Source: Exiguobacterium sp. FSL W8-0210
GTDB lineage: Bacteria; Bacillota; Bacilli; Exiguobacteriales; Exiguobacteriaceae
Length of the DNA stretch: 64,000 nt
Direction of reading: 5' to 3'
Assembly (NCBI RefSeq): GCF_038006045.1
Contig: NZ_JBBOUK010000001.1
Location: 279,001 to 343,000 of the forward strand
The translations under genes were made by a program, and so were the position numbers. The notes beneath the pieces were generated by a model. That model had not been told where the DNA came from, searched no databases, and saw only the letters and a program-made list of their open reading frames with translations. Shown here one piece after another: positions 21,938-37,774 of this stretch (its first letter is position 1; the number at the start of each line of letters is the position of its first letter).

Positions 21938-21970
21938 GAACGGATTCGAAGTACATCGAATCTGTTTGAG
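21938..21970 (+). terminator. First hairpin after the GH13 gene
   Basis: ACGGATTCGA pairs with TCGAATCTGT around a six-base loop and is followed by a short T-run. A near copy lies at 22334-22367. Confidence 0.6.
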
Positions 21971-21980
21971 ACTGAAGATA

Positions 21981-22021
21981 AGTGCAATTGTTCTCTAACG
22001 AGAAGGATTGCGCTTTTTTTT
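21981..22021 (+). terminator. Second hairpin after the GH13 gene, member of a dispersed family
   Basis: GTGCAAT pairs with ATTGCGC, with an inner TTCTC/GAGAA pairing, and is followed by eight T. The segment CTCTAACGAGAAGGATTGCG is shared with the terminator at 16404-16444. Confidence 0.85.
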
Positions 22022-22030
22022 GTTCGTCTC

Positions 22031-22112
22031 GCATCGTTTTCCTGGGACAAGCATCGCGCCGCTTCGCTTCGCTGCAGGGTCGCTCTTGCTTGTTTTTCCC
22101 TAGGAAGCGATG
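22031..22112. repeat. Large imperfect inverted repeat, function unknown
   Basis: GCATCGTTTTCCTGGGACAAGC at 22031-22052 is mirrored, with a few gaps, by 22088-22112. The loop of about 35 bases is GC-rich (CGCCGCTTCGCTTCGC). No reading frame with a ribosome site is present. It is one of several structured pieces in the 504-base gene-free region 21930-22433. Confidence 0.55.
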
Positions 22113-22157
22113 TCGAGTGAACAAAACGCTTTTCTGATTCTCCTTCCGGGTATAAAG

Positions 22158-22312
22158 AAAATGACACGTTACACGCCACTCCTACAGGAAAAAGCGCAAT
22201 TTTGCGCTGTCAGAGACAAACAAGACCCGTTTTCCTGCTCGAATGGAGCGGGAAAACTGGCTTGTGTCTCGCCTGAGGAAAGGGCGTGAAAAGGTGCGTC
22301 ATTTTTTGAGTC
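22158..22312 (+). repeat. Structured intergenic element, copy 1 (possible RNA or miniature mobile element)
   Basis: About 155 bases with a close homologue in opposite orientation at 37534-37694. Both copies fold the same way: an outer stem (AATGACRCGT with its partner), CACGCC/GGCGTG, then TCCTACAGG/CCTGAGGA with one bulged A, enclosing two arms. Arm one is a GCGCAA/TTGCGC hairpin (GCGCAT/ATGCGC in the other copy, a compensated change). Arm two is a long stem built on GAGACAAACAAG/CTTGTGTCTC with an apical hairpin. It ends in TTTTTT. I cannot match it to a named family. Confidence 0.75.
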
Positions 22313-22333
22313 AGTCCATTTGTCTACAATCTG

Positions 22334-22367
22334 GAACGGATTCGATGTACATCGGATCCGTTTTTTT
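22334..22367 (+). terminator. Hairpin-T tract terminator, near copy of 21938-21970
   Basis: ACGGATTCGATG pairs with CATCGGATCCGT and is followed by seven T. Together with the near copy at 21938 it flanks the structured region as an imperfect direct repeat. Confidence 0.75.
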
Positions 22368-37516: not shown

Positions 37517-37533
37517 TGAGTGACCATAGAAGA

Positions 37534-37694
37534 GACTCAATAAAAGAATGACGCGTCTTTTCACGCCCTTTCCTCAGGCGAGACACAAGCCAGTTTTCCT
37601 GCTTCATTAAGTAGGAAAGCGGGTCTTGTTTGTCTCTGACAGCGCATAAATGCGCTTTTCCTGTAGGAGTGGCGTGAAACGCGTCATTCTTTTT
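37534..37694 (-). repeat. Structured intergenic element, copy 2
   Basis: This is the opposite-strand homologue of 22158-22312, lying in the 258-base gap between the DUF4352 gene and the nucleotidyltransferase gene. Its outer stem is perfect: GAATGACGCGT pairs with ACGCGTCATTC, continuing through CACGCC/GGCGTG. The first arm is GCGCAT/ATGCGC, a compensated change relative to copy 1, and the tip of the second arm has T-A where copy 1 has C-G. The central roughly 40 bases (TGTCAGAGACAAACAAGACC) are unchanged between copies. Confidence 0.75.
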
Positions 37695-37701
37695 GTTACG
37701 A

Positions 37702-37742
37702 GATAAGGGTGGCAGTTCATCATTCTGCCACCCTTATCTTTG
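37702..37742. terminator. Terminator hairpin beside element copy 2
   Basis: GATAAGGGTGGCAG pairs perfectly with CTGCCACCCTTATC around a nine-base loop, followed by a short T-run. It can serve the DUF4352 gene and the convergent nucleotidyltransferase gene. Confidence 0.8.
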
Positions 37743-37774
37743 TGGAAACTGATTTTTGAGTCAGCCCCTTCTTG

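Follow-up and report, generated by a model that had tools for sequence, protein, structure and literature searches.

A structured, probably mobile repeat of the Bacilli associated with intrinsic terminators in Exiguobacterium

Structured elements in the window

The window, a 64,000-nucleotide stretch of the Exiguobacterium sp. FSL W8-0210 genome, carries two intergenic copies of a structured element in opposite orientation (Table 1). An initial annotation had described both as an outer stem with a one-base bulge and two arms, differing from each other in ways that preserve pairing. All of these traits are present in both copies, and the folds lie where they had been placed. The segment around copy 1 (22152-22320, 169 nt) has a minimum free energy of -74.9 kcal/mol, against a mean of -43.0 for shuffled sequences (z -8.1); the reverse strand of 37528-37700, which holds copy 2, reaches -76.0 kcal/mol (z -8.6). 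For neither copy did any of 200 dinucleotide shuffles reach an equally stable fold.

The intervals 22158-22312 and 37534-37694, listed by the annotation as the copies in the window, are both genuine; a third and divergent member, on the minus strand, had been missed. It stands head-to-head with copy 1, which is one half of a pair. The pair is contained in a composite unit made up of an accessory hairpin, the minus-strand member and copy 1 on the plus strand, the whole lying between two copies of a native terminator hairpin. Copy 2 belongs to a simple unit, of which the accessory hairpin GATAAGGGTGGCAG..CTGCCACCCTTATC forms part; in an alignment of copies the same hairpin recurs upstream of many of them. 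A full unit of the copy 2 type measures about 238 bp and has the ends GGCTGACTCAAAA..TTTTGAGTCAGCC. Both ends, with at most one mismatch each, are found within 320 bp of one another at 13/35 loci of the genome, at a spacing of 189-239 bp. The GGCTGACTCAAAA ends form terminal inverted repeats on the units at these 13 loci, the inverted ends of the composite being weaker. Terminator-like sites, consisting of a stem-loop and a T-run, are present at the element ends and number 4 per region, as against 0.8 and 0.4 in shuffles.

Table 1. Coordinates, strand and supporting observations for the features of the window
Feature	Position	Strand	Basis
Native terminator hairpin, left duplicate	21938..21967	+	direct repeat D1, 30 nt, 90% identical, spacing 396
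Composite unit at copy 1	21968..22333	.	366 bp; bounded by 30-bp direct repeats
Accessory hairpin of composite	about 21980-22018		
Third member, divergent, Bacillus type without P2 hairpin	22024..22122	-	model R2, 41.3 bits, E 2.2e-10; fold z -5.2
Copy 1, core and outer stem	22158-22312		interval of the initial annotation
Copy 1, structured core (genus type, extra P2 hairpin)	22167..22293	+	covariance model R1, 144.1 bits, E 1.1e-40 (copy 1 is among the 14 sequences used to build R1); fold
Terminator-like site at element end	22283-22300	+	stem-loop and T-run
Native terminator, right duplicate, T-run after	22334..22363	+	direct repeat; terminator-like site 22333-22364
Simple unit with copy 2	37534..37766	-	GGCTGACTCAAAA end at 37754-37766; opposite end truncated
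Terminator-like site at element end	37567-37550	-	stem-loop and T-run
Copy 2, structured core	37557..37681	-	model R1, 133.2 bits, E 1.9e-37; fold
Terminator-like site at element end	37665-37691	+	stem-loop and T-run
Accessory hairpin of simple unit	37702..37738	.	read from sequence

Copy number, covariation and distribution

The element had been presented as a two-copy one. Both copies are real, and there are many more: blastn returns 38 matches in the 3.35-Mb genome, and the covariance model R1, built from 14 copies, returns 40. Twenty-two of the blastn matches span 146-158 bp at 84-100% identity to copy 1, and the others are shorter, truncated or divergent. Divergent copies, such as L024, L025, L026, L028, L030, L032, L033 and L035, differ in their stem sequences; pairing is mostly kept and the unpaired letters of the core are largely unchanged. 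The element is short, non-coding, multi-copy and intergenic. By simple ORF calling, all 34 copies considered lie outside ORFs, a count made after ORFs shorter than 900 nt that overlapped a copy had been discarded; 20 are flanked by convergent genes, 13 by co-directional ones (8 sense, 5 antisense) and one by divergent ones. Convergent junctions are thus overrepresented, at 20/34 copies versus 10/57 junctions in the window, which alone served as baseline (Fisher p 8e-5). No consistent neighbouring gene was seen around the copies.

Three loci of the same genome show rearrangements or neighbours of their own. At L023 (G000:C1 637211-640349) a copy is apparently split by IS-like DNA that starts with its own short inverted hairpin, so that the GACTGACTCAAAA and GGCTGACTCAAAA ends lie about 1.9 kb apart. 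L031 (G000:C1 about 2957000-2957200) is a hybrid, in which a left part of minus-strand type and a right part of copy 1 type are joined at a common CTTG. The divergent copy at L035 (element 1575-1710, ORF 1789-2619) is about 80 bp from a transposase gene pair, labelled IS3/IS150-like from a reading of the ORFs rather than from a family search.

The core is made of an outer stem (P1), an internal loop and a stem UCC..GG/CC..GGA with a one-base bulge, followed by the arms; the small hairpin P2 is an addition in this genus. Covariation was measured in two alignments. Thirty-three cores were taken from 35 loci of this genome, and 14 of them make up A1, with 42 pairs; pairing holds in 91.7% of its cells, and 50 cells have changes on both sides, compared to 16.6 in shuffles and 10-15 in slid versions. 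A2 spans many genera (41 sequences, 25 pairs) and was obtained from 227 candidates, which de-duplication brought to 81, a length filter and the removal of odd ones out to 51, and the omission of 10 more to 41; here 90.1% of cells pair and both-side changes amount to 178 cells, versus 63.9 in shuffles and 34-68 in slid versions. The observed covariation was reached by none of 500 shuffles, the slid versions being lower. One-sided changes are scarce in A2, with 12 cells against 178 two-sided ones; the corresponding figures for a SAM riboswitch control (29 of 30 sequences, one at a contig edge having been dropped) are 27 and 104. Among the 22 recent copies, change affects 3.8% of paired and 9.4% of unpaired positions. 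Many copies with covariation had been suggested as a check, and both were found here, in the form of 40 matches and of covariation above the shuffle and slid controls.

R1 detects the element in all 19 genomes of the genus, with 12-130 matches each (up to 150 candidates scored per genome, E 0.001 or better), as well as in 33 of the 38 genomes of the order and in 26/299 genomes of the class; in the class scan up to 11 candidates were scored per genome at E 0.001 or better, making the copy numbers lower bounds. At E values up to 0.1, R1 gave 15, 13 and 5 matches in three genomes from other families, and these genomes have a second form of the element, without the P2 hairpin. An exact 18-base pattern from this form occurs in at least 117 stretches, from Peribacillus, Oceanobacillus, Lysinibacillus, Staphylococcus, Salibacterium and others; such matches are invariant in the anchor by design and therefore understate variation there. 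R2, a model of the P2-less form, matches in 125/398 Bacilli genomes and 36/145 genera (up to nine candidates scored per genome, so that copy numbers are floors; E 0.001 or better). Fourteen plasmid records match a Bacillus-type query; the copy 1 query gave no match among plasmids, nor did one Bacillus-type query among phages. The element apparently represents a large, unnamed family of small mobile repeats across many Bacillus relatives.

The annotation gave no named family with this layout, in agreement with the Rfam searches. In Rfam 15, no family reaches its curated gathering cut-off anywhere in the window. The sole match at curated cut-offs in seven loci of relatives is an L21 leader, away from the element, and four loci searched at E values up to 5 gave only two MIR821 matches, both in L024 next to the element and below threshold at 22.5 and 20.8 bits. 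A known RNA family is ruled out by these searches of the window and of the relatives' loci tested.

Some Bacillales copies have an extra hairpin-rich insert in the core, either on the 5′ side, where the genus of the window has P2 (L127, L144 and L162), or on the 3′ side of the inner arm (L112, L138 and L174); the core seems to tolerate added hairpins. In Peribacillus deserti, the 5′ part of two truncated copies (L133 and L164) is followed by other sequence with TTGTCCAGCTCCGGACTGACACCTTCGGTCATAAGCC in common, which may be another interspersed family.

Hairpins at element-free sites

Seventeen own-genome sites, selected by the analyst from 20 + 14 flanked copies, were searched in all and compared with orthologous stretches in up to four relatives of the same genus. 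The 15 sites with simple units gave 52 locus-relative comparisons: 34 free of the element and with a hairpin, 10 with the element and 8 left unmatched by the script. Four of these last, at L029, show a hairpin by alignment, and the other four are without a usable left flank. In the 34 element-free comparisons, which share ancestry among the relatives and are not independent, the gap measures 19-111 bp in the relative as against 200-296 bp here. These gaps fold as hairpins, mostly from an A-run to a T-run, with z-scores of -1.9 to -12.6 (100 single-base shuffles). The weakest native hairpins are those of L018 (z -1.9 to -3.7) and of L013 in two relatives (z -2.1 and -2.4). For every one of the 15 sites, a terminator-like hairpin stands in place of the element in one close relative or more. 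At the copy 2 site, for instance, the hairpin is found in G002 and G011, and the element is present in G001 and G010. That the element occupies terminator places in this genus, an unusual habit, is well supported.

No native hairpin was seen beside the element at the 15 simple sites of this genome, and flank identity to the nearest relatives without the element is often 93-99%. Traces of the native stem were tabulated for 14 of the 15 sites, with L029 left out. At L010 the native outer stem AAAATGAC/GTCATTTT is retained on both sides of the element. L009 retains AAATAA/TTATTT and L016 AAAAG/GCTTTT; these remnants are mostly A/T runs common to any terminator, only that of L010 being distinctive. 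The divergent copy at L032 has an unaltered terminator next to it on the upstream side; the orthologous site has a copy of opposite orientation in G002 and shortened copies in G010 and G011. The native terminators at the L009 site vary by species among G001, G002, G010 and G011 with pairing kept (AATGATCCGCC versus AATAAGCCGC), which indicates that the stems of terminators in this genus can change in matched fashion even where no element is present.

The site of copy 1 presents a different picture. The 30-bp terminator that flanks the composite on both sides is single, and the composite absent, in G002, G010 and G011; the composite is present in G001. The same pattern is seen at L003, where the duplication covers 28 bp (93% identical) and comprises the whole terminator hairpin. 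A similar duplication is visible by eye at L002, where the repeat finder reported none. The repeat finder also detected no terminator duplication at L007 and L031, and at L008 only an 18-nt repeat, unlike the duplicated hairpin. Empty sites and target duplications had been proposed as the marks of a miniature element. Empty sites were found, as was the 30-bp duplication at copy 1; the simple units showed no short target duplication.

Movement, termination and competing readings

Three options had been offered for the element: a structured RNA, a miniature transposable element or a specialised terminator. The second and third combine, the miniature element being supported by the presence/absence sites and by the target duplication at copy 1, and the terminator by the native terminators at element-free sites; a purely regulatory RNA is the weaker reading, since no fixed gene context is seen and presence varies between species. 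We consider it probable that the element is a non-autonomous mobile repeat of the Bacilli, with a conserved folded core, which inserts at or into intrinsic terminators and assumes their job. Judging from the sequences, the simple 238-bp unit would take over the position of the native hairpin, of whose stem no more than the outermost pairs and the A/T runs would remain, and the long stem of the element, with A/T runs on both sides, would act as a two-way terminator, mostly between convergent genes. The composite at copy 1 would differ in being flanked by a duplicate of the whole native hairpin, and the movement step may act on the hairpin itself, through a cut or template switch at the stem. 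A particular form of this step is hairpin exchange by an element without a transposase of its own: once the native stem had been opened or cut, or else bypassed through template switching, the hairpin of the element would replace the native apex. We regard this as unlikely. It would preserve termination through insertion and explain why no short target duplications are seen at simple units, why one-sided changes in old stems are scarce (12 versus 178 in A2), how hybrid copies such as L031 arise and how the whole terminator came to be duplicated at copy 1.

An ordinary miniature inverted-repeat element, moved by a DDE transposase, could insert anywhere between genes, survive best where these converge and leave redundant terminators to decay. 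The inverted ends of the simple unit, the multi-copy and non-coding nature of the element and the convergent enrichment known for BOX, RUP, SPRITE and IS in pneumococcus (PMC3049150, in the part available) are as this reading would have them. Against it, the 15 simple sites show no native hairpin beside the element despite flanks that are often nearly identical, and decay should leave uneven remnants, whereas L010 keeps equal stem bases on both sides; on balance the reading appears doubtful. A search of one genome with one end pattern revealed no clear IS-sized pair with element ends, apart from the copy interrupted by IS-like DNA. A structured RNA, regulatory in trans or in cis and spread by duplication, would suit the unpaired loops, which are conserved over many genera, and the covariation above controls. 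If the fold acts as RNA, G-U pairs should exceed A-C, and they do so in the 22 recent copies (47 versus 12 cells; 27 versus 10 distinct events, p 0.008) and in A1 (21 versus 10). In A2, however, G-U and A-C are balanced (17 versus 19), as against 32 and 2 in SAM riboswitches taken through the same steps (Fisher p 1.6e-5); a hand count restricted to helices 2-4 gives 10 and 7 (p 0.004). The ratio depends on the predicted pairs: the same steps applied to reverse complements yield a G-U excess in both the element (64:17) and SAM (59:17), and because other pairs are predicted there the wobble ratio is not a clean strand test. Folding energy favours the strand assigned to the element in 56/78 cases with RNA parameters and 73/78 with DNA parameters, a test given no weight because predicted G-U pairs are commoner on the opposite strand (204 versus 136). 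As to an RNA role, we regard the strand evidence as mixed: recent copies look constrained on the assigned strand, as expected of an RNA hairpin in a terminator, and the deep alignment would agree with pairing being restored in the DNA. With no consistent neighbour gene, co-directional copies in both sense and antisense orientation and presence that differs among close species, a regulatory RNA strikes us as distinctly unlikely.

The absence of a G-U excess in the deep alignment is also what one would expect of a DNA-level signal of the kind represented by uptake sequences and BIME/REPIN palindromes, bound in DNA form by a protein of the host and found in terminators since inverted pairs make hairpins. 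Uptake signals of Neisseria and Pasteurellaceae do form terminators, according to the available part of the report (PMC1852404), and close neighbouring members of the present family are arranged head-to-head in 29/38 pairs, in the same direction in 8 and tail-to-tail in 1, a count inflated by orthologous loci among the 38. Such a signal is nevertheless very improbable here, the element being about 100-240 bp long and structured, unlike a short signal, and present at 12-130 copies in the genus rather than about 1000. Mobilisation by a RAYT or IS200-type enzyme as a present requirement is ruled out: the Y1 transposase domain PF01797 was not found in 10 of the 19 copy-bearing genomes of the genus, including one with 130 matches, and the own genome has only an interrupted copy of it. 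Integron attC sites were considered as well; the element ends read GTT..AAC rather than AAC..GTT, the order that we take to be typical of attC.

REP and REPIN elements are moved by RAYT (Y1) transposases. The present element, in which this enzyme is not a requirement, is much longer and has a conserved multi-loop core. It resembles them in being a palindromic extragenic repeat often found in opposite-orientation pairs, as far as the accessible parts of the descriptions go (PMC2817692, PMC3733652). The closest described kind, on the same footing, is SPRITE of Streptococcus pneumoniae, an 18-bp duplex followed by a U-rich tract, terminator-like and suspected of having been co-opted as a terminator (PMC3049150). 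SPRITE, BOX and RUP share with the element described here a small size, a fold, an interspersed distribution and enrichment between convergent genes; they are reported from pneumococcus and, at lower frequency, from S. mitis and few other streptococci (PMC3049150, available part). The present element is set apart from SPRITE, by description, in its more complex fold and in the element-free sites with native hairpins, the authors of the SPRITE study having found, in the portion of it available, no comparable empty site (PMC3049150). The bcr1 repeat of the Bacillus cereus group is likewise folded and intergenic, of similar size (147-167 bp) and endowed with mobile-element features; compared by description from partial sources, it differs in being specific, by title, to that group (PMC2267715, PMC3733652). 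A 2008 survey, seen in part, lists further intergenic stem-loop families in Bacillales, Bhal-1 (74 bp, 36 copies in B. halodurans), Bant-1, Sta-1 and Sta-3, some of which, to go by names, sizes and copy numbers, may overlap the present family (PMC2267715). Uptake signal pairs in terminators offer another parallel, that of a repeated sequence co-opted into terminator hairpins; they differ in length, at about 9-11 nt in the accessible text (PMC1852404). No description of the present family was found in the literature, where partial coverage of subscription journals makes absence weak evidence, and it apparently constitutes an undescribed, wide family of a known kind, that of miniature structured repeats.

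Conservation of the core over many Bacilli genera suggests that they have a partner in common, be it an enzyme that moves the element or a protein that binds it. The sites at which the element is present in one species and absent from a close one make the movement step directly testable. If the proposed explanation is true, a repeat that settles on terminators would represent a route for mobile DNA to spare its host and to join the gene-ending machinery.
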